A stretch of 64,000 nucleotides of DNA, taken from the NCBI RefSeq assembly GCF_007860075.1, contig NZ_SJPP01000003.1, positions 806,001 through 870,000 on the forward strand, in the 5' to 3' direction. The notes beneath the pieces are model-generated. The model saw only the letters and a program-made list of their open reading frames with translations, did no database searches and was not told the origin of the DNA. This DNA comes from Symmachiella macrocystis (GTDB taxonomy: Bacteria; Planctomycetota; Planctomycetia; Planctomycetales; Planctomycetaceae). How positions within the stretch are numbered: position 1 is the first letter of the stretch; the number at the start of each line of letters is the position of its first letter. Shown here one piece after another: positions 9,759 to 47,911 of the stretch. Made by a program: the position numbers and the translations under genes.

Positions 9759-10655
9759 ATGAAGACCTGCCCGAATTGCACCGCTGCGGTTCCCGAATTG
9801 GCCAGTTTTTGCGCAAGTTGCGGTTCTGAATTCCACGGAGCGGATGCGGTGCCGCTCGAACCCGCACCCCCGCCTCCCGTGGTCCCGCAGAGCCCTTGGA
9901 AGTGGGTCGTGGGGATTGGCCTACTTTTTGTGTTGCTGGTCGGCTGTTTCGTAGCGATACAAACAATTCTGATCTATCGGCAAGCGGCAAATTCCAGAAC
10001 GGTTGCTGCCGTACCAACCCAAACTACCTGGAACGAAAGAAATCTCAAGCAGATTGGCTTGGCACTGCACAATTATCACGACGTTTACAACGTGATGCCT
10101 GCCGGTGGAATTTTTGACGAACAGGGAACGGAGTTCCATAGTTGGCAAACTGCGCTGCTACCGTTTCTCGGGTACAGCGCAAAGTACGAGAACGTTCACT
10201 TCGATTTGCCATGGAACGACGTGGAAAACCAGTGGGCGTTTGATGAAGTCATCCGAGAATATGTCAATCCATCCATCCCGATGACTCACACCGGCAACGG
10301 CTATGCGCTCAGCCATTTGGCCGGGAATTCGCAGGTCTTTCCGGACAATCAAGGGCTGGCGTTCAAAGAAATCGTGGATGGAACCTCGAATACAGTGATC
10401 GCCGGTGAGGTGGTGGACGGTTTCGCACCGTGGGGATATCCTCGAAATGTCCGCAATCCCGCGGATGGGCTGCAGGGGGACAGCCTTACGTTTGGTAGCC
10501 TGGGCAAAAGTGATGGAGTCATGTTCCTCAAAGCGGATGGCTCGACAGTGTTTTTGAACCAGGATATCGATCCCAGTGTGCTCAAGGCGCTTAGCACGCC
10601 TGCAGGCGGGGAAGAAACTCCTGAAATGCCCAGGATGCGCAATTCGCCACCGTAA
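9759..10655 (+). CDS. Zinc-ribbon / membrane / DUF1559 fusion protein
   Basis: A 298-residue protein. Residues 1-22 form a zinc ribbon (CPNC...CASC), followed by a Pro-rich linker, one membrane helix (about 48-72) and then a DUF1559-type domain beginning [17 protein letters not shown] and including DGTSNTVIAGE and FLKADGSTVFLN near the end. Classical DUF1559 proteins instead begin with a type IV pilin-like methylation helix ([10 protein letters not shown]), as the gene at 36662 does. This protein is anchored another way and is unlikely to be processed by a prepilin peptidase. Role unknown. Confidence 0.85.
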   Translation: MKTCPNCTAAVPELASFCASCGSEFHGADAVPLEPAPPPPVVPQSPWKWVVGIGLLFVLLVGCFVAIQTILIYRQAANSRTVAAVPTQTTWNERNLKQIGLALHNYHDVYNVMPAGGIFDEQGTEFHSWQTALLPFLGYSAKYENVHFDLPWNDVENQWAFDEVIREYVNPSIPMTHTGNGYALSHLAGNSQVFPDNQGLAFKEIVDGTSNTVIAGEVVDGFAPWGYPRNVRNPADGLQGDSLTFGSLGKSDGVMFLKADGSTVFLNQDIDPSVLKALSTPAGGEETPEMPRMRNSPP

Positions 10656-10891
10656 ACGGTGTTGCCCACCGGCTATTTGCAGAAAACCTCTCTCACATTT
10701 TGAGACGAGGACCTTGGCTTAAAGTAGCCCCCCGTCACGGTTCGATGAGATTGATATCAGATGCTCACAATCTGGATCGATCGACGCACGTCATAGGTCG
10801 ACTGCCGGTTTTCCTACGAATCGGTCCACTGAGATTGTCGGGGTCTGCATTTATGTCCATTACCCCCCGCTGCGTCTCAAGGACCGAGGCC

Positions 10892-12709
10892 ATGTACGAA
10901 TCACATTTTCAATTCCAACGACGTCCGTTTTCGGCAACTCCCGATTCCGACTGTCTGTTTATCACGGACAACATCCGCGAGACCATTGCGGAGTTTGTGA
11001 TCAGTATGCAACGGGGACAGGGGATTGGCGTTTTGACCGGAGCCGCCGGGATGGGCAAGACCTTGCTCTGTGGTCGGCTCGCCGAGGAATTGTCCGAGCA
11101 ATTTCAAGTGGCGCTGCTCAAGAATGCGAACTTCGCCACCCGCCGGTCCTTGCTGCAAAGCGTGCTCTTTGAATTGGGCCAGTCCTACACCGGCATGGCC
11201 GAGCAGGAATTGCGGCTGGAATTGGAAAAATATTGCGAGTCCGCATTAGCTGATAGCGATGGCGTCGCTTTGATCATCGACGAAGCGCACTTGATGTCGC
11301 AACGTCTGCTAGAAGAAGTCCGTTGTATCACCAACTTAACGACCGGTGGAATTCCGCTGGTTCGCGTGGTACTGAGCGGACAACCGGCGCTTGAAGAGAC
11401 CTTGGCGAAACCGGGCATGGCGGCGCTCAACCAACGCATTGCTTCGCAACATCATTTGGAATCGTTGTCCCGTTTCGAATCGCGGCAATACATCGAGTAC
11501 CGCACGAACTGGGGCGGCGCGAATCCGCAGCAGATCTTTACCGACGACGCAATGGCCGCCATCGCCCATGCGGCCGACGGCGTGCCCCGCGCATTGAATC
11601 AACTTTGCGACCATACGCTGTTATTGGCGTTTGTCTCGAACCAGCCCTGTGCCGATGCGGCGCTGGTCGATGAGGCCTTGGAAGACCTGCGGCAATTACC
11701 GCTGCATTGGAACGAACGAACACGTGTCGCTGGACCGTTGGATGCCTTGAAACAGAAGTCCACCGATTTGGACGAATTCACTGACGCGGATGAAGACGTC
11801 GAACCGTTTGACTTCGAAGCGTTTTCCAACGACGGAATGGAGAGCATCGAAATCGGCGGCATGGACGAAAGCCCGGCCGAAAACGAAGTCCCGCACGAAG
11901 AAGTCAGCCTGCCGGTGGAAGAAGAGGAACAAATTGCCTATGCGATAGCCAATGACGACGAAGAGATCGCCATTGAAGCGGTGATTGTGGAAGCGGATGA
12001 CGTTATCGAGATGGACGCACTGGAAGTGGAGATCGAAAACGAGGAGGAGGTTCCTATGGAGACTGTTGCCATTTCATCGCATGAATCGTCTAAAAATTCT
12101 GCCGCCATTGCGGGGGTTGTGCCGTTGGTGGACGATCACCAAAGCGGAGCGGTGATGTTCGAAGAGGAACTGGTTGTCGATCGATACGCAGCACTCGATG
12201 CCGAGCGCCGTGAACGGCCACCTTTGACAGCAGTGAGTCACTCCGAAGAGCCACAACCGGAAATCCCCATGGAAACCCCGGTTGTTGAGGAATTGGCAGT
12301 TGTCGAAGAATTAGCGACTGCCGAGCCAGTAGCCGCAGACATGCAAGATGCGTCCACCGATTCTTGTGAGCTTGAGGATGAAAACGAGACGGAGCAGCAA
12401 GCCGAAGGACCGTCGGTCGATGCACTCAACGCAGCCATTTTGAACAAAAGTCTGAAATCGCACCGAAACGTCATCAATCAAATCAATGAGCTGGACTTTG
12501 GTGAAGTCGCCGCCTCAGAGGAACCAGATTTTGACGTTGTGGAATTGGAACCGGCAAAGCCATCGCAAACATTGCGTCATGACCGGCAACCAACTGCGAA
12601 TGATAAATCAGCGGCGAATGAAACCGAAGAGGGCGCCGTACCGCGTCCGAACCTGCGGCGGCTGTTTACTAAACTTCGCCGTGTGCAACACGAACGCTCG
12701 GGACGGTAG
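10892..12709 (+). CDS. ExeA/GspA-like AAA ATPase with long acidic C-terminus
   Basis: A 605-residue protein. The start is the ATG at 10892 (AAGGA eight bases upstream), which gives the typical MYESHFxFxxRPFSATPD opening of ExeA-type ATPases. Walker A is GAAGMGKT at residues 50-57, Walker B VALIIDEAH near 127-135, and a sensor region NQRIASQHHL follows. The ATPase module ends near residue 270. The remaining 330 residues are dominated by Glu/Asp with no recognisable fold, and the protein ends in a basic tail (NLRRLFTKLRR). ExeA relatives couple ATP hydrolysis to peptidoglycan or secretion functions, or act in mobile elements; no secretin or transposase is nearby. Confidence 0.85.
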   Translation: MYESHFQFQRRPFSATPDSDCLFITDNIRETIAEFVISMQRGQGIGVLTGAAGMGKTLLCGRLAEELSEQFQVALLKNANFATRRSLLQSVLFELGQSYTGMAEQELRLELEKYCESALADSDGVALIIDEAHLMSQRLLEEVRCITNLTTGGIPLVRVVLSGQPALEETLAKPGMAALNQRIASQHHLESLSRFESRQYIEYRTNWGGANPQQIFTDDAMAAIAHAADGVPRALNQLCDHTLLLAFVSNQPCADAALVDEALEDLRQLPLHWNERTRVAGPLDALKQKSTDLDEFTDADEDVEPFDFEAFSNDGMESIEIGGMDESPAENEVPHEEVSLPVEEEEQIAYAIANDDEEIAIEAVIVEADDVIEMDALEVEIENEEEVPMETVAISSHESSKNSAAIAGVVPLVDDHQSGAVMFEEELVVDRYAALDAERRERPPLTAVSHSEEPQPEIPMETPVVEELAVVEELATAEPVAADMQDASTDSCELEDENETEQQAEGPSVDALNAAILNKSLKSHRNVINQINELDFGEVAASEEPDFDVVELEPAKPSQTLRHDRQPTANDKSAANETEEGAVPRPNLRRLFTKLRRVQHERSGR

Positions 12710-36661: not shown

Positions 36662-37735
36662 ATGTCAGCCACACATCGGCGACGCGGATTTACGCTCATT
36701 GAATTGCTGGTTGTGATTGCGATCATTGCCATACTCGTCAGCTTATTATTGCCCGCTGTGCAACAGGCCCGTGAAGCCGCGCGGCGGACGCGTTGCAGGA
36801 ACAATCTCAAACAACAGGGATTGGCACTGCACAATTACCACGATGCCCACTCCGCATTTCCCGCCGGTTATTACTCGTACGGAACCAGCAACGGTTCAGG
36901 TCCCTCTTGGGCGAACATCGATCCGCTCACCTGGGATGCAGCACCGGGTTGGGCGTGGGGGACCATGCTGTTGCCCTACCTTGACCAGGCCCCGCTGTAT
37001 CAGACATTGGACTTGAATCGCCCTTGTTGGGATGCTGCCAACGCGACCGCAATTCAAACCACGCTTCCGGTTTTCTTATGTCCTTCTGCCAGCGGAGCGA
37101 CGGAGCCCTTTACAGTACGAGACGCAGCTGCAGACCCGTTGTTGGTGGATGGAGCAGAGGTGCAATTGGGACGATCACATTATGTCGCCAGCCATGGACA
37201 GGAGTCCTGTTGGGGTGAGTGCGGTGCTGCTCCCGCGGGCGTGGTGTTTTCCAACATCTACACCTCAACAACTCAAACAGTGTCGATCAATGGAGACGCG
37301 TCGCAGGTCGCAGACGGGCCGTTTTATCGCAACTCCGCCACGCGTATCAAACATGTCACCGACGGCATGACCAACACGGTCTTCCTCGGCGAACATTCGT
37401 CGAACCTCAGCGAAAAAACCTGGGTTGGCGTTGTACCCGGTGCGTTTACGCATCCGAATTTCACCTCACCTGAAAACGGTCCCGACGCAGCGGCGACGCT
37501 TGTGCTGGTCCACGCCGGTCCTTCAGGCGGCGAACTGGATATCACCGGCTTTCCCATCATCCACCCCATTAATTTTCCCACCTATCACGTGGGGCAAATG
37601 TACTCCGAACATACCGGCGGCGGGTTTGTCTGCCTGGGGGATGGTTCAGTCCGTTTTGTTTCCGAAAACATCGACCTATTTGTCTGGGCCGAGCTGGCTA
37701 GCATCGGCGAAGGCGAAATCATAGGGGAATACTAA
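36662..37735 (+). CDS. DUF1559 protein with type IV pilin-like N-terminus
   Basis: A 357-residue member of the expanded planctomycete DUF1559 family, with AGGA before its ATG. Residues 9-30 are a prepilin-type signal ([19 protein letters not shown]), predicting cleavage before Phe by a prepilin peptidase. The body opens with [19 protein letters not shown] and includes [11 protein letters not shown] and a C-terminal [20 protein letters not shown], the H-x9-DG signature. Such proteins probably form envelope pseudopilus-like structures. The downstream lipoprotein gene starts two bases after its stop. Confidence 0.95.
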
Positions 37736-39690: not shown

Positions 39691-40245
39691 TTAGTCTTGC
39701 CGCTGCCGATAAAGCGACGGATCGACGACGTTCGCCATGGCTTCCAGATCGAGTTGCAGTTCCAAGAAATCGGCAACGCTGCGGGCGGCATCAAGTGGTG
39801 CGTCGACGACTGAGCGAAATTCCAATTCCATCGATCGAATATGATTTTGCTGCAGCAACCATTTGGCCAGATCTTGGAGATGCCGCTCAAAGTGCAGACG
39901 GATGTCCATTCCCGCTTGCTGAGGAGCCGTGTCCGCCAGCATTTTGTCTTGGGAGCGAAGAATCTCATCCATGTTCCGACGCATAAAGACCACGCGGTAT
40001 TCCAAGTCGCTCGGCAAATTGTACAGTAGCAACGAGACGACCTTGAGCGCCATCCCGTCCGCTTCGGCCAGCCATGCGTTCTCTTTGGCCAAAGCCTTCA
40101 CGCGGCGATCTTCGTAATAACCGCGGAGGTTGTGCGTATCCGCTTCCCGGACATTGTCCGTTTGCAGACGCAGGCCCCCCGCTTGCAGCATTTGCATCAT
40201 CAATGAGGTGCCCGAACGCGGGAGTCCGGAAACGATGGTGATCAT
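39691..40245 (-). CDS. Small sulfotransferase-family protein
   Basis: A 184-residue protein with GAGG before its ATG. It begins directly with the PAPS 5'-phosphosulfate-binding loop (VSGLPRSGTSLMMQML), and YRVVFMRRNMDEILRSQDKML supplies the 3'-phosphate-binding region, so it should move a sulfuryl group from PAPS. It is shorter than most sulfotransferases (250-300). It lies 28 bases after the membrane protein gene and is probably the last gene of the leftward set that starts at 47911. Confidence 0.82.
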   Translation of the reverse strand: MITIVSGLPRSGTSLMMQMLQAGGLRLQTDNVREADTHNLRGYYEDRRVKALAKENAWLAEADGMALKVVSLLLYNLPSDLEYRVVFMRRNMDEILRSQDKMLADTAPQQAGMDIRLHFERHLQDLAKWLLQQNHIRSMELEFRSVVDAPLDAARSVADFLELQLDLEAMANVVDPSLYRQRQD

Positions 40246-40273
40246 GAGACGCCTCGAAAAGTGAATAACCGAT

Positions 40274-41098
40274 TCAAAAGCTGACCTTCATCACCCGTCC
40301 GATCAACAGGCCGAAAATCATCGTCAGGAGCAGGAACGCAATCACCCAAGGAATTTCGTAGCCAGCCACAAAAAGTTGCCGGTGGGGATATTGCACGGAA
40401 ACCTGTTTGATAGGTCCCACGTTTTCAATGGGAGGTTCAGCCGGGTGAAATAGTTCGTCCCAAAATCCACTGCTGACGCGCTGGTCGGATACTTTAAGCA
40501 AACGGTTGCCAACGACAATCTGCTTGCGGACGGATTCTTGATCGGTCTGGACCTCAATCCACTGGGAGCCATCTGCCTCAGCCCGCAAACGCCAATTCGC
40601 CTGGCTCAAGGCGGGGACGCGCATACTTTCGGTTTCGACCAGCAGTCCCGCTGAGGGAATGAACTGGATGTCTGCACTCATCAAGGGAAAATCGTCGGTG
40701 AAATCAACCTGCACAAGAATCGATTCGTCGACAGCAAACGGGCGATATTCATACCAGCAGGAGAGCTGAATCAATACCAGCAACGCGGGGACGAGGGTCA
40801 CGCCGATTGGCTTGAGCAGCTCCCCTAGGTAACTCAGATTGGCAACCGCAAGTCGTCCAAAGGCGGTCACACTGACGATCATATCATGCCGAAAGATCAG
40901 CAACTCCAACGCGCGAGCCAACATCCGCCCTTTTTTACGCTTCAATGCCTGCTGGTTGGAGAAGACTTTGAAAGCCCAAACGAAAACGATCGATGTGACG
41001 AACGAAATCGCCAGCATTGCCGGCCAAGGATTCTCCCCGCGAAACGGAGAGATGAGTAAATCGCCAAGCGTGTTGCAGATAAAATTGACATAGGTCAT
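40274..41098 (-). CDS. Membrane protein of the phosphatase cluster
   Basis: A 274-residue protein not matching a family I can name. It has a membrane helix at about 25-46, a basic cytoplasmic stretch (SNQQALKRKKGRMLARALEL), a hydrophobic segment at about 92-113 (LKPIGVTLVPALLVLIQLS), a 120-residue beta-rich presumably periplasmic domain, and a last helix at about 248-268. The first half vaguely recalls the Oxa1/DUF106 layout (helix, basic loop, hydrophobic pair), which is a weak comparison. It starts five bases after the RHH-like gene, so it belongs to that operon. Confidence 0.75.
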   Translation of the reverse strand: MTYVNFICNTLGDLLISPFRGENPWPAMLAISFVTSIVFVWAFKVFSNQQALKRKKGRMLARALELLIFRHDMIVSVTAFGRLAVANLSYLGELLKPIGVTLVPALLVLIQLSCWYEYRPFAVDESILVQVDFTDDFPLMSADIQFIPSAGLLVETESMRVPALSQANWRLRAEADGSQWIEVQTDQESVRKQIVVGNRLLKVSDQRVSSGFWDELFHPAEPPIENVGPIKQVSVQYPHRQLFVAGYEIPWVIAFLLLTMIFGLLIGRVMKVSF

Positions 41099-41103
41099 GG
41101 TTG

Positions 41104-41295
41104 CTAATCGATGTATCCCAGTCCCTGCAATCGTTTTCGCACTTCTTCCTCGGACTCAACCTGTTCTGTTTCGGCGGCTGCTTTTTCCAGGATGTTGATG
41201 ATGAATTCATCAACGCTCGAGCAACCCACTGCCTGGGAGGCTTTCTTCAGACTCTCGTAAAGTCCCGGTTCAATTTTCACTTTTGGACCGAACAT
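41104..41295 (-). CDS. 63-residue ribbon-helix-helix-like protein
   Basis: A small gene from the ATG at 41295 with AAAAGG upstream; the open frame extends further but only as a shadow of the neighbouring gene. Residues 5-38 (VKIEPGLYESLKKASQ...SSVDEFIINILEKAA) have the strand-helix-helix pattern of CopG/Arc proteins. The last part, EEEVRKRLQGLGYID, ends in an LxxLGYxx motif also seen in the sulfatase-like protein of the same cluster (NLRSLGYVA). It is 32 bases downstream of one phosphatase gene and 5 bases upstream of the membrane protein gene. Regulator or structural partner cannot be decided. Confidence 0.75.
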   Translation of the reverse strand: MFGPKVKIEPGLYESLKKASQAVGCSSVDEFIINILEKAAAETEQVESEEEVRKRLQGLGYID

Positions 41296-41327
41296 GTTTG
41301 CCTTTTCTGAAATATCAACACTGGGAA

Positions 41328-43346
41328 TTAAAGTATGTTTTGCCCCGACATCTCCGTCGGAACGGGGACTCCAAAGGCCGACAGAATGGTGGGAGCCAAG
41401 TCGGTTAGATTGGGATCCTGTTTCTGGATCGCCCGGTTGCACAGTAAGACTCCCGGTACAATTTGTGAATTCACACAATGATCCCCGCTCCAGGCATCGG
41501 TATTGTCCAACAGATGCTCGCGAGGAAACGAGCCCAAGACCGTGTCCCATGATGCGCGGTAATAATTGCTATAAGCTACGATAAGATCCGGCGCGTCCTG
41601 AAGATAGGGACCGCTATAAATCTCCTCGGCTCGAAAGACGTTTGCAATGACTTGCTCGCCGTTTTCGGGATCGCGGACTTCCTTCAATCGAGCAATCAAT
41701 TCGCTCTTGAGTTCTTCCGCCTCACTCCCTTGAGCCACGGTTCCTTGGGTTTCGCGGCCGGCGAGATTGAGGTAAAGCCCGTTGATCCCTAATCCATACG
41801 CGCGTGTGTTCGGCCAATCGACATCGAGGAGATAACTGTTGGCACCGCGGCTATTGGGGTTTTTGGCACCGACGTAGCCATTGTCCATCAGCCACGAATT
41901 CAAATTGAATTGCCGACGAAATGAGGTAAATCCGTGATCCGACATGACCATCAACAGGGTGTTTTCGTCCGCCTTCTCCATGGCTTGGCCGATTGCGCGG
42001 TCGAGTTTGCCATATAGCTCGGGAATGAAATCGCCATGCTGGTCGGCGAGCTCTTGCGAGTAGGCGGGATGCTTGCGGTCGCGGGTCCGCCAAAAGACGT
42101 GGGAATTCAAGTCGAGCGACGAAAAGTAAAAGAAGAGAAACCCGTCCTCGAAGCGTTCTAGTTCGTGCTCAAAAAACCGGAGCCGTTCCTCGATCACGAA
42201 TGTCGATTGCTGGCGGTATTCTTCCGGAGTCAAAATACCGGCCGACAGCGCGCTGGTATCCTCGATCATGCCTTGCGTATAGAAGTACCCCATCTCCCGC
42301 ACGAGCCGCTGAGCGTAATCGGGCGGAGTCGAAATCGGCATGGAGGAATCAGAGGGATCGATATTCACCGGCGAGACATACAAACCGAATCCGTCCTGAG
42401 CTTTCTTAAGCAGAACACGGCAGATTCCCGAGACTTCCACCAAGTGCGGTAGCATCGGGAATTTGACCACGATCCAATCACTCCATTCGCCTTCCCGGAG
42501 CAGTACCTCCGATTCGGGAAAAACGATTTTCGCCAACGGCCGCTGAGGGTCCAAGTAGACTTGAAACGGAACTTCCGAACTCGTCTCCTCGGCCAGGAAT
42601 GAATTCACCGGCCCCTTTAAAGAGCATTCCACAACGTGGTCTCGTACGGCCACCTTTTGGATGTTTCCGCCCGGCACATCATGCGTCCGTTGCCGCGAAT
42701 GATCCGTGAAATAGGTGAACGTGCCATACCCACCTTGTAGATCGGGGGTCCCCATGCCCGAGAGTGTGGTCGCATCGGTATCCGTGGCCGGAAAATTAGC
42801 GGGCACGCGAAAAATAGTACAAGGGACACCCGAATCCTGCAGGTCGTTCCAAAACGTCTTTCCGTGGCGACGGTTTTCGATTCTCCCTGGAGAGAGCGGG
42901 ACCTGCCAACCTCCCAACGAAAGCATGCCCGAAGCTGGCTCTGCCTGAGCGGTTGAGTGAAACGGCAGCATAGTCTTTGGGTCACGGGCAATGAAATCGA
43001 AAATCCCATGTCCACCGGGATTCGTCCCCGAAATGAAATTCGACCAAGCCACGGGGCTTTGCGGGGGATCGCAGGTTTGCAAGTTCCCAAAGGAACCCGC
43101 TTCCATCAAACGTTGACAATTCGGCATCCGTCCCTCGGCGACGAATTGCTCCAACAACTTCGGGTCCATGCCATCCACGCCGAGCACAATCATTCGCTCG
43201 ACGGGAGCATCGGTCCCTGCCCCACCTGTGGATTCACCACGGCGTGTCGATTTGCCGCAACCGGCGACCAACGCCGCCGAAGCCGCGGCTTGAAGAAAAC
43301 GACGCCGGGAAACAGCTGCTGCGGTTTGTTCGGATGGTGTTGTCAT
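41328..43346 (-). CDS. Alkaline-phosphatase-superfamily hydrolase, Tat lipoprotein
   Basis: A 672-residue type I phosphodiesterase/nucleotide-pyrophosphatase-like protein. Its N-terminus combines a twin-arginine motif (SRRRFLQ, 13-19) with a lipobox ending at Cys30, so it should be exported folded and lipid-anchored. Metal-site residues are visible: Asp58 in LGVDGMD, candidate nucleophile Ser97 in QSPVAWSNF, Asp and His in SSLDLNSHVFW, SDHGF, and the final His in SGDHC. Its start overlaps the stop of the next phosphatase gene by 4 bp. Physiological substrate unknown; a phosphodiester or phosphoglycan is plausible. Confidence 0.88.
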   Translation of the reverse strand: MTTPSEQTAAAVSRRRFLQAAASAALVAGCGKSTRRGESTGGAGTDAPVERMIVLGVDGMDPKLLEQFVAEGRMPNCQRLMEAGSFGNLQTCDPPQSPVAWSNFISGTNPGGHGIFDFIARDPKTMLPFHSTAQAEPASGMLSLGGWQVPLSPGRIENRRHGKTFWNDLQDSGVPCTIFRVPANFPATDTDATTLSGMGTPDLQGGYGTFTYFTDHSRQRTHDVPGGNIQKVAVRDHVVECSLKGPVNSFLAEETSSEVPFQVYLDPQRPLAKIVFPESEVLLREGEWSDWIVVKFPMLPHLVEVSGICRVLLKKAQDGFGLYVSPVNIDPSDSSMPISTPPDYAQRLVREMGYFYTQGMIEDTSALSAGILTPEEYRQQSTFVIEERLRFFEHELERFEDGFLFFYFSSLDLNSHVFWRTRDRKHPAYSQELADQHGDFIPELYGKLDRAIGQAMEKADENTLLMVMSDHGFTSFRRQFNLNSWLMDNGYVGAKNPNSRGANSYLLDVDWPNTRAYGLGINGLYLNLAGRETQGTVAQGSEAEELKSELIARLKEVRDPENGEQVIANVFRAEEIYSGPYLQDAPDLIVAYSNYYRASWDTVLGSFPREHLLDNTDAWSGDHCVNSQIVPGVLLCNRAIQKQDPNLTDLAPTILSAFGVPVPTEMSGQNIL

Positions 43347-45481
43347 GCGGTCACCTCTACGGAAGAGACGTTAGATTCTGCAGTGTCGACTGCTGGCAAC
43401 GGCGGCTTGCCGTTCCTTGTCAACGCTTTACCATCCATGTATAGCGGCACCGGGACGCCGAACAAATTAAGAATCGTCGGTGCCAAGTCTGTAATCGCGG
43501 GATTCTCGTCGCTGAATTGTTGGTTGGAGAGAAACACACCGGGGACCAGTTGCGGATCGACACAATGGTCGCCGCTCCAATAACGCGTGTTGTCGTAAAA
43601 CATCGGGCCATCGCTGCCCCCGACTGCAGTCTCCCACGAGACACGATATCCTTTCTCAAAGCCCACAATCAGATCCGGACCGTTATCGACATACGATCCC
43701 GAATAGACCTTTCGGCTGTCGTAGACTTCACGTATCGCACGGCATTGTTTTTCATCATCCATCATGTGCCGCAAAGCATCGGCAATTTCCGTACGCAACT
43801 CCGCCGCCTGTTCGGCTGGGACACATCCCTTCGACTCCCGCCCCACTCGATTCAGATAGATCCCATTGAGCCCCAAGGAATAGGCACGGGTCCGCGACCA
43901 GTCGACGCCGGCAAAGTAATCACCCTGTGTCGCCGCTTCGTCCATCACAAGATAGCCCTTTTCGCGCAACCAATAGTTGAGATTCATAGCGCGGCTAAAA
44001 TCGCAGAAACCGTGGTCGGAGAGGACCATCAAGACGGTGTCTTCATCGATCGAATCTCGCACCCGCCCGACCAGACCGTCCATTCGTTCGTACATATCAT
44101 CGAGGACGTGTGCGTGACGCTCGGAATCTTTGTCGGCATTCGCTGGATGGTCTTTGCGATTGTGGCGATAAAACATGTGCTGAATTCGATCGGATCCGTC
44201 AAACACACACATGCACAATCCACGGCGCGTCCGCTTGAGCGCGTCGAAGAACATCGTCTCGCGTTCGGCATGAATGTCGTAGGCCTGATCCAGAAACGCC
44301 TGCTCGTCGATGGCACCGGAATTCAAAGCCCACATATCTTCGGCCAAACCGAGGGTGGCAAACGAAGAGTGCAATTTGCCGAGATACAGCGAATAGAACA
44401 GCGGTGCGGAGATCGGCATCGCCGGACGTTCCGGATCGATGTTGATCGGTGTGACATACAACCGAAATTGCGGCGCGGCTGATTCCAAGCGAAACCGACA
44501 AATCCCGTGCACTCTCTTCAGCCACCCACAACGAAACGTTAGGTGGACCCATTCAGAATATTCCCCGGGTCGCAGATGAATGGTCTGGCCCGATATCGTG
44601 GCGTCGACTCCATCGTCTTTGGGACGCCGCTGGATGATCAAGGGAAGCGTCAATTCCGACGGTTGACGCCCCGCCTCATTCGGAGGTCCACTGAGACTTG
44701 TTTCGATCCGGTTGTTCGCCTCAGTCACATGAATCCAGACGCCGCCGGTCGAGTCTTTGCACTCCGCCTCGTTTGACGAATACATGGTGAACGTGCCTTG
44801 CGTGCCCCGTAAATCGGGAGTGCACATCGCCGAGAGCGTCAGGCCAAAAAACTTCTCGGGCGGAAAGGTTATCGGCACGCGAAGGATCGTGCTGAAAATC
44901 CCGTATTTGCCAAGCACGCGCCAAAAGGGTTGGTTCTTACGCAGCAGCCGAATTCCCGATCCTCCCAGACCAATCTTGGACAGCAGGCTCGTCTTGCCCG
45001 TGGCTGTCACTTTGGCTGAGGATAATTCGGGCAGATAGCTGCGTAGGTCACGGTTCAAGAAGTCAAAAATATTGTGCTTGCCCGGATTGACGCCGGTCAT
45101 GAACGACGACCAAGCCACGGGAGAAATGGGCGGCAAGGTCGTTCCCAGTTCGGAGAACGTTCCTTCCTCCTTGAGGGCTTTGAAATTGGGGAGCCGGTCT
45201 TCGTCGATCAACCGCCGCACACGCTCAGGGTCCAACCCGTCCAGCCCGACCACAACGACCCGCGCGACACCGCCGGTCACGCCGCTGCGGATCCGGCGCA
45301 CCCATTGCGTTACAAAACGGATCGGCCATGTCGCCAGCGAGATCAACAACAGACCAATCGCGGCGAACAGAACCAAAAATGAACTCAGAAATGTGAAGCC
45401 GGCACCGGGACCGATATACGCCAAATTTGGCGCAAGGGGAGGCGCGGCTGTGGCAATCATTTCGTAGAACGTTGGAATCAT
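43343..45481 (-). CDS. Alkaline-phosphatase-superfamily hydrolase, membrane-anchored
   Basis: A 712-residue relative of the downstream phosphatase. The N-terminus has AYIGPGAGFTF followed by a membrane helix (about 30-55), leaving the catalytic domain outside. Core residues match its partner: Asp in VVGLDGLD, Ser in ISPVAWSSF, then NPGKHNIFDFLNRD, the SDRIQHMFYRH region, SDHGF and SGDHC. The two proteins are clearly paralogues, so this looks like a duplicated pair, one lipidated and one membrane-anchored. The start at 45481 and an ATG seven codons later are both possible. Confidence 0.88.
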   Translation of the reverse strand: MIPTFYEMIATAAPPLAPNLAYIGPGAGFTFLSSFLVLFAAIGLLLISLATWPIRFVTQWVRRIRSGVTGGVARVVVVGLDGLDPERVRRLIDEDRLPNFKALKEEGTFSELGTTLPPISPVAWSSFMTGVNPGKHNIFDFLNRDLRSYLPELSSAKVTATGKTSLLSKIGLGGSGIRLLRKNQPFWRVLGKYGIFSTILRVPITFPPEKFFGLTLSAMCTPDLRGTQGTFTMYSSNEAECKDSTGGVWIHVTEANNRIETSLSGPPNEAGRQPSELTLPLIIQRRPKDDGVDATISGQTIHLRPGEYSEWVHLTFRCGWLKRVHGICRFRLESAAPQFRLYVTPINIDPERPAMPISAPLFYSLYLGKLHSSFATLGLAEDMWALNSGAIDEQAFLDQAYDIHAERETMFFDALKRTRRGLCMCVFDGSDRIQHMFYRHNRKDHPANADKDSERHAHVLDDMYERMDGLVGRVRDSIDEDTVLMVLSDHGFCDFSRAMNLNYWLREKGYLVMDEAATQGDYFAGVDWSRTRAYSLGLNGIYLNRVGRESKGCVPAEQAAELRTEIADALRHMMDDEKQCRAIREVYDSRKVYSGSYVDNGPDLIVGFEKGYRVSWETAVGGSDGPMFYDNTRYWSGDHCVDPQLVPGVFLSNQQFSDENPAITDLAPTILNLFGVPVPLYMDGKALTRNGKPPLPAVDTAESNVSSVEVTA

Positions 45482-45766
45482 CGGCTCGCACCATCACTCT
45501 TCATGAGACTCAACAGGATCCGCGAAGCCTCGATAATCATCAACAATTCCTGATCATTGCCACGCTCCGAATCGCCGACAAGTCGCTGGGGCCTGCGCAG
45601 CAAGTCTATATCTTGTATACCTTTACTGCCACGCAAACACAAGGACGCCTCACCACTCAGGGCAAAGCGAGACCGCTAATTAGAATACGCCCTCAGAACG
45701 GCCTTCGTTGGGTCTGTTTTGATTGTCCGTCACACTGAATGCCAACGGTTTAGCTGCCCAAACTGG

Positions 45767-47911
45767 CTAACGACTCCCTTTACGCAACGCTGCTTCGATC
45801 TGTCGGATTTGTTGCGTGGGACGTGGATCGTTGGGACGGATTTTCTGAGCTTCGCGCAACAGAAGAATGCCGTCTTCGTATTGTTGATTTTGGACCAGCA
45901 ACAGCCCCAGATTGAATCGCGTTTCGAACGACTTCGGGTTCAGGGTGATAGCCCGCATGCCGACTTGTATACCTTTGGTAGGCTGCCCCGTTTGCGCGAG
46001 GGCCATCATCAGATTCTCATGCGCAGCGACATTGCGGGGATCAATTTCGATCGCCTTCTCGAGGTAACCAACAGCCTCCTTCGGTCGCTGTAACCTCACC
46101 AGCAAATGCCCTAAATAAACGTTCGCCGCTACCATATCCGGCGCGAGACGTAATGCTTCACGAAACTCTGAAATGGCCTCGTCATATTTCTGCAGTCGTC
46201 CCAACACATTCGCCAATTCCAAATGCCCCGCGGGGTCATCCGGGTTGGCTTTGAGGAATTCACGGAAATTCGCTTCCACCTGTTCGAACTGGCCCTGGGC
46301 TGCCAGAACGCTGCCGAGCTTAAAATACGCGCTGACAAAGTCAGGCCGCCGTGCCAGCACGGATCGATAGACCGTCACGGCCTCCTCGTGGCGGCCCGCC
46401 TCAGCCAGAAGATCGCCGAGACTTAAGTCGGCCTCCGGATAGTCCTCCGTGGCATCCGCAATCTCCTGAAGCAGGACCATGGCCTCTTCCTGCTGACCCT
46501 CGGCGACGATGTGTTTAGCTTCTTCGAACTTTGAGACATAGGGCACCATGTCTTTGACATCGATGAGCGATTGGTCGGTGGTCACGACGGCATCCTGCTC
46601 AGAAGATGTACCGCCAGCCACATACCCTAATGATCTTAAATTCGCCACATCCTGTTCCGACAGTTCCACTTCTCCAGCTTGGGTACGTTGGAACGATTCA
46701 AGCATGTTGGTCAAGAGGGTTTGCAATCTGTTGGCTTCTTCACCAACGGTATCGACAAGATTATTGAGTTCTTCAGGATCCTCTTCCAGATTGTAGAGTT
46801 CGGGCCGCGTGGATTGGATGTACTTCCATTGCTCAGAAATCACCGCTCGTGGCGGACACCAACGATTCATGTAGTACGGCATTTCCGACTCGGCATAACA
46901 ATCTTGCGATTCGATCGACTCCCCCTTCAATGCCGGAAGCAAGCTCCGTCCGCTCATATGTTTGGGTGCCGGGATCTGTAACACGTCGAGCAGTGTGGGC
47001 ATGATATCAACGAGCGACACAACTTCCCCGACACGCGTCCCCGGTTTTACAAACTGAGGTCCGGCAAACGCAAACGGAACATGCACGGTCGTGTTGTAGA
47101 CCAGCATGCCATGCTCATATTCCCCATGATCATCGAGCCCTTCCCCATGATCGCCGGCGACGACGACTAACGTATTTGATTCCAGGCCGTTCTCTTTCAA
47201 AAAGGCATTCACCCGGTCGAACTGCTGAACTTCCCAAGCCACTCCGGCATCGTACGGTTTTTCCGCAAATCGATCCTGGTAAACTTCAGTAAAGGGGTCA
47301 TACGGACCGTGCGCGTCATACAGATGAATCCAACAAAAGAACGGCTCAGCGGTGCGTAGCCCCAACCACTCCAGCGCTAAGTCCACAACTTCTTCACCAT
47401 CACGACGTGCAACACCATAGCTCCGCGTTCGAGACAACATCTTGGCTGGGGCATCGTCATAGGTATCGAATCCGCGATTCAGACCGAATTGTGCACCCAA
47501 GACCGGGGCAGCGGCGATAAAGGCGCCGGTCTGATAGCCATTCTCTTTGAGGATTTCTGGCAGCAGTGGAATCTCGCTCGCCAAAGCGCCCGCCCCATTC
47601 ACACGCAAGCCATGTTCTGGCGGATAGAGGCCCGTTAACATCGTCGTGTGCGACGGCAAGGTAATCGGCGCCGGCGCATATGCCTGCTCAAACAACACAC
47701 CCCGCTTGGCAAAGTCATCGAAGGCGGTCGTCAGCCCCTGCTCATATCCGTAGGCTCCCAGATGGTCCGCCCGCGTCGTGTCGAATGTGACAAGAATGAT
47801 ATTCGGGCGAGGAGTTTTCCAATACCACCGAAGTGTGCCCGCCCCCACCAGAACGAGGAGCGCGCAAGCGACAATCCACATTCGACGAGAGAGAAATGAT
47901 TTGCCCCTCAT
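45767..47911 (-). CDS. Sulfatase-fold hydrolase/transferase with TPR domain
   Basis: A 714-residue protein. One N-terminal helix (about 10-27) anchors it. The alkaline-phosphatase/sulfatase fold runs to about residue 400: ILVTFDTTRADHLGAYGY, HLYDAHGPYDP and GDHGEGLDDHGEYEHG give the metal site. The sulfatase signature C/S-x-P-x-R is replaced by TLPSH, so a Thr sits where formylglycine would form; this predicts phosphate-type chemistry as in LtaS or phosphoethanolamine transferases. After LRSLGYVAGG come TPR repeats (about 470-710). It is first in the leftward cluster, 285 bases before the next phosphatase gene. Confidence 0.9.
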   Translation of the reverse strand: MRGKSFLSRRMWIVACALLVLVGAGTLRWYWKTPRPNIILVTFDTTRADHLGAYGYEQGLTTAFDDFAKRGVLFEQAYAPAPITLPSHTTMLTGLYPPEHGLRVNGAGALASEIPLLPEILKENGYQTGAFIAAAPVLGAQFGLNRGFDTYDDAPAKMLSRTRSYGVARRDGEEVVDLALEWLGLRTAEPFFCWIHLYDAHGPYDPFTEVYQDRFAEKPYDAGVAWEVQQFDRVNAFLKENGLESNTLVVVAGDHGEGLDDHGEYEHGMLVYNTTVHVPFAFAGPQFVKPGTRVGEVVSLVDIMPTLLDVLQIPAPKHMSGRSLLPALKGESIESQDCYAESEMPYYMNRWCPPRAVISEQWKYIQSTRPELYNLEEDPEELNNLVDTVGEEANRLQTLLTNMLESFQRTQAGEVELSEQDVANLRSLGYVAGGTSSEQDAVVTTDQSLIDVKDMVPYVSKFEEAKHIVAEGQQEEAMVLLQEIADATEDYPEADLSLGDLLAEAGRHEEAVTVYRSVLARRPDFVSAYFKLGSVLAAQGQFEQVEANFREFLKANPDDPAGHLELANVLGRLQKYDEAISEFREALRLAPDMVAANVYLGHLLVRLQRPKEAVGYLEKAIEIDPRNVAAHENLMMALAQTGQPTKGIQVGMRAITLNPKSFETRFNLGLLLVQNQQYEDGILLLREAQKIRPNDPRPTQQIRQIEAALRKGSR

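Follow-up and report, generated by a model that had tools for sequence, protein, structure and literature searches.

A cluster of six leftward-reading genes occupies positions 39,691 to 47,911 of a 64,000-nucleotide stretch of the Symmachiella macrocystis genome (contig NZ_SJPP01000003.1, positions 806,001 to 870,000 of the forward strand), which was analysed as a whole and is hereafter called the window. Four of these genes, designated AlkP1, AlkP2, RHH-like and MEM, make up what sequence comparison identifies as a deeply conserved cassette that recurs as a unit in many bacterial phyla, with alkaline phosphatase (AlkP) superfamily enzymes, a small protein resembling ribbon-helix-helix (RHH) proteins and a membrane protein as its parts. 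In many of its neighbourhoods the cassette is accompanied by genes for sulfotransfer and for the synthesis of 3'-phosphoadenosine-5'-phosphosulfate (PAPS). We favour, at a probability of roughly 40%, the reading that the four proteins form an inner-membrane module that makes or remodels one particular envelope molecule, which would be sulfated and would probably contain phosphodiesters. The six genes, including their transmembrane (TM) helices and tetratricopeptide repeats (TPRs), are as follows.

SulfTPR, 45767..47911, minus strand: N-terminal membrane anchor, AlkP/sulfatase-fold domain and TPR array; accessory
AlkP1, 43343..45481, minus strand: PF01663-type enzyme with a YIGPGAG stretch and one TM helix; core
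AlkP2, 41328..43346, minus strand: Tat/lipoprotein-type signal and AlkP-superfamily fold; core
RHH-like, 41104..41295, minus strand: 63 residues, C-terminus RLQGLGYID; core
MEM, 40274..41098, minus strand: three TM helices and a partly Ig-like beta domain predicted to be extracytoplasmic; core
SulfoT, 39691..40245, minus strand: PAPS-type sulfotransferase (PF13469); accessory

A conserved cassette of four genes

Conservation was assessed with an RHH-profile scan of a public genome collection, in which 331 matches were confirmed and the best 80 of them taken as loci for analysis. Phyla were assigned from record titles, most of which belong to metagenome-assembled genomes whose labels may be wrong; read in this way, the best 80 of the 331 name at least 12 phyla, among them Acidobacteriota, Gemmatimonadota, Planctomycetota, Omnitrophota, Nitrospirota, Verrucomicrobiota, Lentisphaerota, KSB1, Eisenbacteria, Krumholzibacteriia, Latescibacterota, Sumerlaeota, Aminicenantes and Myxococcota/Deltaproteobacteria, as well as others. 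MEM adjoins the RHH gene in 79 of the 80 loci, and in the only other one (L055) the sequence stops 50 bases past the RHH gene. AlkP matches were found in 75 loci, and frames matching at E<1e-100 lie upstream of RHH as a pair in 60 loci and at least singly in 70; two of the loci that lack AlkP (L084 and L114) are sequences that start at the RHH gene itself. The gene order of the cassette is kept from phylum to phylum despite MEM identities to the window's protein of only 22-33%, and in three loci (L068, L073 and L086) the order has changed such that MEM precedes RHH. Neighbouring genes were called with a simple greedy script, and some of the calls, probably those of clusters 6 and 7, are misplaced antisense frames.

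The same association is apparent at the level of whole genomes. A search with the window's MEM found matches in 37 of 246 Planctomycetota genomes, and in 30 loci around MEM (the window's included) AlkP stands beside it in every case and RHH in 28. A MEM profile built from 66 relatives reached 48 of the 246 genomes, 37 of them strongly (E<=3e-32), and an AlkP2 profile reached at least 500 bits in 39, namely all 37 genomes with a strong MEM plus two others (G051 and G026). Strong MEM matches thus occur in 37 of 39 genomes with a strong AlkP match vs none of the remaining 207, where at most five candidates per genome were scored in the AlkP2 search and at most ten in the MEM search, and where the 500-bit line was chosen after inspecting the list, which has no clear gap at that point (504 to 499.5 bits). 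The AlkP2-type matches in G051 (C189:4621-6405) and G026 (C85:8505-10271) score 671 and 612 bits and have no MEM match in their genomes. Eleven further genomes, in which MEM-like matches are weak (E from 3e-16 to 4e-4), were excluded from the 37; these (G200, G243, G117, G145, G159, G010, G098, G079, G130, G017 and G076) have no AlkP match of 500 bits or more, and their MEM-like proteins possibly belong to a different bacterial branch of this membrane family. Within the window's own family the distribution is patchy, with MEM in two of the 13 genomes sampled, including that of the window.

These observations bear directly on a first-pass annotation, made from the letters of the DNA alone, that had described the six genes as one cluster and had named homologues never found together as grounds for abandoning the idea. 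The contrary is the case, as the homologues were found side by side in almost all of the loci and genomes examined. The grouping is not due to chance, and in this respect the annotation was right; the conserved unit, however, comprises four genes rather than six, and a six-gene unit was rejected because SulfTPR and SulfoT are accessory in related loci. The coordinates and spacing are reproduced, with gaps computed from the coordinates of 285, -4, 32, 5 and 28 bases between successive open reading frames (ORFs) from SulfTPR to SulfoT, the 285 bases being those that separate SulfTPR from AlkP1. Most of the family assignments likewise hold: AlkP1 and AlkP2 both match PF01663 (E=1.3e-30 and 1.4e-31; 107.6 and 110.8 bits, against a Pfam cut-off of 23), SulfTPR matches PF00884 (E=1.9e-40, Pfam) in addition to TPRs and so has the sulfatase fold with TPRs that was claimed for the third catalytic protein, SulfoT matches the PAPS sulfotransferase family PF13469 (E=1e-9; 39.4 bits, above the Pfam cut-off of 27), and the Tat (twin-arginine translocation) signal reported for one AlkP protein is found on AlkP2, at 17 bits against an NCBIfam cut-off of 16.7. 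The family matches of the catalytic genes in NCBIfam were to related families only, all below cut-off. Consensus scans of the cluster returned two promoter-like sites vs 5.2 expected and 12 terminator-like sites vs 11.9 expected, counts that are uninformative on how the cluster is transcribed.

The membrane protein MEM

The first-pass annotation had been unable to place the membrane protein and had proposed structure prediction, which has now yielded a confident model (pLDDT, the predicted local distance difference test, 96.3; pTM, the predicted template modelling score, 0.87), while profile comparison places the protein near a known one. Neither Pfam nor NCBIfam yielded a match for the window's MEM at the thresholds applied. 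The MEM profile, in turn, matches the archaeal YidC-like protein MJ0480 (PDB 5c8j) at E=1.8e-10 over residues 7-120, which span TM1, a hairpin and TM2, and a weak co-linear match extends to TM3 (248-273). PF01956 (EMC3_TMCO1) was matched at E<=1 by 14 of the 66 MEM relatives, the best at 3.8e-7, and at that threshold not by the window's MEM; a PF01956 scan of the window's genome gave nothing at E<=0.001, and among 14 control genomes the family was found in three, all archaea. By these profile matches, MEM is a bacterial relative of the DUF106/EMC3 proteins of the Oxa1 superfamily. The available text of one source describes DUF106 as an archaeal family (PMC8887752), and that of another takes the non-archaeal members of PF01956 to be EMC3 and TMCO1 (PMC8675477).

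The model arranges MEM as a short helix, TM1, the hairpin, TM2, a beta domain (about 118-249) and TM3, with helices at 25-46, 49-68, 73-116 and 251-269. Structure searches with Foldseek and VIA-align returned matches covering only the Ig-like part of the beta domain (about 118-199; best Z 6.7 with a root-mean-square deviation, rmsd, of 2.0 over 74 residues, Z values up to 6.7 being within the range that the alignment tool calls middling), so the non-appearance of Oxa1 structures in them carries no evidential weight. The charge balance per sequence is positive in the hairpin (K+R 7.8 vs D+E 4.0) and negative in the beta domain (13.7 vs 16.6), which predicts the hairpin to be inside and the beta domain outside. 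In one locus, from a Polyangia record (L106:10220-12937), a single ORF of 906 residues fuses MEM (1-275) to a sulfatase-fold domain (389-689) that has a C-terminal LGY tail, a feature discussed below.

The paired AlkP enzymes

By sequence, the active site is complete in both AlkP enzymes. D58, D412, H416, D470, H471 and H623 are invariant in 64 aligned AlkP2 and 36 aligned AlkP1 sequences, and Ser97 stands at the nucleophile position in 64 of 64 AlkP2 and 35 of 36 AlkP1, the last having Thr; the alignment comprised only sequences with the domain-start pattern (63 AlkP2 and 35 AlkP1) together with the window's own, and the residues correspond to the nucleophile and metal-ligand positions of the superfamily. 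The AlkP2 model (pLDDT 90.1, pTM 0.89) lies nearest ENPP7 (best Z 25.6), ENPP6 and the Xac nucleotide pyrophosphatase/phosphodiesterase (NPP), with Z of 25.0-25.6 and rmsd of 3.7-4.0 over 335-348 aligned residues; phosphonoacetate hydrolase follows close behind the NPPs (Z 23.6), Foldseek ranks SPAP alkaline phosphatase first, and a PDB search with AlkP fragment profile A2 gave no match at 1e-3. NPPs use a Thr nucleophile. With Ser in all 64 AlkP2 sequences, AlkP2 is better said to work like an NPP than classed as one, and phosphodiester chemistry is at most a best guess. Elsewhere in the window's genome (L194, C2:1288000-1301000) a frame of about 1046 residues also matches PF01663 (E=7.8e-25).

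Where the two enzymes work is suggested by their signals. In all 62 AlkP1 sequences (61 relatives and the window's), the YIGPGAG stretch is followed by one TM helix and then by at least three K/R within 20 residues, and the segment from YIGPGAG to the helix is uncharged. This charge pattern predicts a cytoplasmic catalytic domain, and does so whether or not an additional upstream hydrophobic stretch, present in 58 of the 62 and not in the window's AlkP1, is cleaved. The earlier suggestion that all three catalytic domains are exported is therefore not supported, and was rejected on account of AlkP1. AlkP2 does look exported: a hydrophobic, Tat or lipobox signature was found in 61 of 62 sequences with crude patterns, which were applied to at most 75 residues ahead of the domain in frames whose start codons are unproven. 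Charge and signal patterns thus point to AlkP1 at the cytoplasmic face of the membrane and AlkP2 at its outer face.

Accessory genes and the link to sulfate activation

Formylglycine sulfatases carry a C/S-x-P-x-R active-site motif. SulfTPR has Thr at the nucleophile position (TLPSHTTMLTG) and an internal LRSLGYV motif; the C/S-x-P-x-R motif is not present in it, for which reason it is probably not a sulfate hydrolase, and its assignment as an ordinary sulfatase was rejected. Of the 80 related loci, 19 have sulfatase-fold neighbours (cluster 3). With a first motif pattern, 69 of 142 AlkP-cluster and 14 of 23 sulfatase-fold proteins gave no site; a C-x-P/A-x-R scan covering all of them then found that motif in none of the 142 and one of the 23, the sole carrier lying in L109. 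The window's genome has 67 matches to the sulfatase family PF00884, and large numbers of sulfatases are known in planctomycetes. In the two nearest cassette-bearing relatives (L191 and L192), AlkP1, AlkP2, RHH, MEM and SulfoT stand in the same order as in the window, and immediately upstream of AlkP1 the place of SulfTPR is taken by an arylsulfotransferase (matching PF05935 at E=5.9e-25 and 1.2e-22). A MEM tree with these three rows labelled sets the window apart from the other two, so that two changes, gains or losses, are needed; the window's MEM has a long branch (1.63), which leaves its position unsure. Near the cluster, an ORF at window positions 36662-37735 has an N-terminus resembling that of prepilins.

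A link to sulfate chemistry, already suspected in the first-pass annotation from SulfoT, is borne out and can be extended to APS (adenosine-5'-phosphosulfate) kinase, ATP sulfurylase, CysH and further sulfotransferases, along with the arylsulfotransferase of the two relatives. At least one of Sat, CysC, sulfotransferase or CysH is matched in 37 of the 80 RHH loci (CysC in 17, sulfotransferase in 22, CysH in 7 and Sat in 14). The Sat count was lowered from 16 since the matches in L041 and L067 are to an APS-kinase gene by way of fused references, and several of the 17 CysC matches are domains of fused Sat-CysC genes. Among the 37 strong-MEM Planctomycetota genomes, at least 21 have an APS kinase no further than 10 kb from MEM; in 19 it is upstream of MEM and on its strand, 17 times at a distance of 5.2-6.1 kb (about where AlkP1 starts), and in G019 and G192 it lies on the other strand.

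In some loci the linkage takes the form of a long operon. Nine of the 80 loci were chosen for their extra upstream genes, with the families of examples confirmed, and ahead of AlkP1 these have varying subsets of a second small RHH gene, ATP sulfurylase, APS kinase and either one or two compact AlkP genes. The complete set was called, at close spacing, in L063, and the set less one AlkP in L095. Among 20 Planctomycetota regions, the order RHH'-Sat-AlkP-CysC-AlkP1-AlkP2-RHH-MEM is complete in L184 and L186 and partial in others. The second RHH gene opens the long operon and precedes ATP sulfurylase in several loci; its small RHH-type product, with an LGYL tail, was found at about 0.9-2.8 kb in seven loci (L041, L049, L053, L063, L090, L095 and L112).

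The RHH-like protein and its C-terminal tail

The small RHH-like protein reported in the first-pass annotation is present and conserved, though the label itself is weak, with a match to TacA1 (PF08681) at E=0.087 and 13.2 bits vs a cut-off of 21 and, when the profile of the RHH-like family was used, one to NikR at E=0.018. What its members do share is a K/R-rich tail of the form Lx(G)LGY(I/L) at the C-terminus. A strict version of this tail, lying no more than three residues from the end, was found in 60 of 61 RHH-cluster proteins and in 29 of 819 other genes, vs 0.07 expected from shuffled ends, after 42 of the 922 called genes that run off their contigs had been dropped. The 29 comprise five of six APS kinases in a cluster from the public loci, 16 of 22 proteins of the sulfatase-fold cluster, two of five CysH, four of 142 proteins of the AlkP cluster and two singletons, one of which is a frame in L066 that ends like CysC; one further APS kinase, in L189, also carries the strict tail. 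The three alignments to solved sulfatases end before the tail region. Because tails occur on both cytoplasmic- and exported-looking proteins, a receptor would be needed on both sides of the membrane, for which the AlkP/sulfatase fold is a candidate. A genome-wide LGY tag in the window's species was considered and rejected, the pattern giving 22 matches vs 37 in the reversed control; apart from RHH, the only in-frame LGY match within five residues of a stop in that genome is a 38-residue frame.

Proposed mechanism and points against it

Under the favoured reading of a four-protein module for a sulfated envelope molecule, ATP sulfurylase and APS kinase would supply cytoplasmic PAPS, and a sulfotransferase or AlkP1 would modify or trim a membrane-bound precursor on the inner side. 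MEM, with its Ig domain outside, may organise this precursor or carry it across the membrane, and AlkP2 would then cleave or transfer a phosphodiester on the outer side. The LxxLGY tails of RHH proteins and of tailed APS kinases could act as docking peptides that tie these soluble proteins to the AlkP enzymes, replacing in trans the tail that many sulfatase-fold relatives have in their own chain. In the window's species, the gene for APS kinase lies elsewhere in the genome and the sulfotransferase alone adjoins the cassette. Taken to its furthest extent, this would be a membrane-bound sulfation metabolon, in which a YidC/EMC3-type MEM that is no longer a general insertase joins two phosphodiesterase-type enzymes on opposite faces, with RHH adaptors and, in certain lineages, the PAPS-making enzymes clipped on by a portable C-terminal LxxLGY peptide; this extended form we consider speculative and, on balance, doubtful.

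Several observations weigh against these proposals. Forty-three of the 80 loci have no Sat, CysC, sulfotransferase or CysH match in the sequence examined, such that the link to sulfate activation is frequent and not universal. APS kinase is common in Planctomycetota regardless of the cassette (180 of 246 genomes), and the only PF01583 match in the window's genome is on another contig. No glycosyltransferase was recognised among the 14 neighbour clusters inspected. Three loci from Bryobacterales/Terriglobia records (L109, L116 and L117) have RHH and MEM, around positions 10001-11037, and no AlkP despite 10 kb of upstream sequence. As for the tail, its carriers belong to about six families, and the 29 are consequently not 29 independent events. 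The strict tail is on none of 12 Planctomycetota APS kinases (11 beside the cassette and one the window genome's own), seven of which show a looser likeness only (e.g., LKALNFID or LKEKGYI), and the LGY pattern is not enriched in the window's genome.

Alternative explanations

MEM may, in line with its superfamily, be a dedicated protein insertase. Its client would be AlkP1, whose short tail on the outside and single N-out/C-in helix make it the type of protein that YidC and EMC handle, and the other genes would be partners in the AlkP1 pathway. The match to MJ0480, the uncharged segment between YIGPGAG and the helix in all 62 AlkP1 sequences and the restriction of strong MEM to genomes with strong AlkP matches would all be accounted for. 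However, the upstream hydrophobic stretch of 58 of the 62 could use the ordinary Sec route, and the large Ig-like domain, together with the MEM-sulfatase fusion in L106, suggests a standing part rather than a helper; we regard this explanation as unlikely. Alternatively, the genes may constitute a scavenging module, with exported AlkP/sulfatase-fold enzymes stripping phosphate or sulfate, Sat, CysC and CysH assimilating the sulfate, and RHH proteins, which are often DNA-binding, serving as operon repressors. CysH and CysC in 7 and 17 of the loci, the weak NikR match and the C-x-P/A-x-R motif of the sulfatase-fold neighbour in L109 (a locus that itself has no AlkP genes) are in keeping with this. 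Sulfotransferases in 22 loci and the arylsulfotransferase of the two near relatives point instead to the synthesis of sulfate esters, the motif is confined to that one sulfatase-fold protein and is found in none of the AlkP-cluster proteins, and AlkP1, like the compact AlkP proteins, has the look of a cytoplasmic enzyme, leaving scavenging a doubtful account.

The AlkP2 model has ENPPs and a bacterial NPP as its nearest structures (Z about 25), and compact AlkP genes lie between Sat and CysC. Both points would also suit a role of the AlkP enzymes in controlling pools of PAPS, APS or 3'-phosphoadenosine-5'-phosphate (PAP), by nucleotide phosphodiesterase or phosphatase activity, with the membrane parts serving only as tethers; AlkP2, by the crude patterns in 61 of 62 sequences, looks exported and would be apart from the cytoplasmic PAPS pool, which makes such a role improbable. 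It is very improbable indeed that the genes are unrelated neighbours brought together by chance or by the spread of gene clusters. The patchiness of the cassette in the window's family fits such an origin, but the order recurs across phyla at low MEM identity, the linkage is kept in the three loci where MEM precedes RHH, and an accidental grouping is contradicted by MEM beside RHH in 79 of 80 loci and by the co-occurrence in genomes.

Significance and comparison with known systems

Our literature search, which covered mostly sources other than subscription papers and preprints, recognised no description of the cassette, of a bacterial EMC3/DUF106 branch or of the LGY tail. The cassette would represent a conserved system without assigned function, found across many phyla of mostly uncultured bacteria, and MEM would be a bacterial branch of a family treated as archaeal and eukaryotic in the available text of two sources (PMC8887752, PMC8675477). 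The metabolon, if true, would be a trans-membrane assembly line for sulfate or phosphate esters of a kind not described before. The cassette offers a handle on the possible synthesis of sulfated surface molecules in these bacteria, and the short peptide tail on unrelated proteins is directly testable for docking.

Parts of the proposed system have counterparts elsewhere. MEM resembles the DUF106/EMC3/TMCO1 branch of the Oxa1 superfamily (MJ0480) in the co-linearity of TM1, the hairpin, TM2 and, weakly, TM3, an order of elements that its model keeps. Unlike that branch, MEM is bacterial, is unmatched by PF01956 in the window's case, carries between TM2 and TM3 an extracytoplasmic beta domain of about 130 residues that is in part Ig-like, and is encoded within an enzyme cassette. 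AlkP2 shares its core fold and its PF01663 match with NPP/ENPP enzymes (ENPP6, ENPP7 and Xac NPP); it differs from them in the Ser at the nucleophile position, in an extra beta-rich insert (about 230-345) and in being paired with a paralogue, AlkP1, that is predicted to be cytoplasmic. SulfTPR recalls EptA and LtaS, AlkP-fold transferases of phosphoethanolamine and phosphoglycerol, in its sulfatase-fold domain outside the membrane and its Thr at the nucleophile position, and departs from them in its TPR array and LGY motif. Rhizobial NodPQ-NodH, finally, likewise groups ATP sulfurylase, APS kinase and sulfotransferase for one product, whereas here such genes are joined by MEM, a pair of AlkP enzymes and LGY-tailed RHH proteins.

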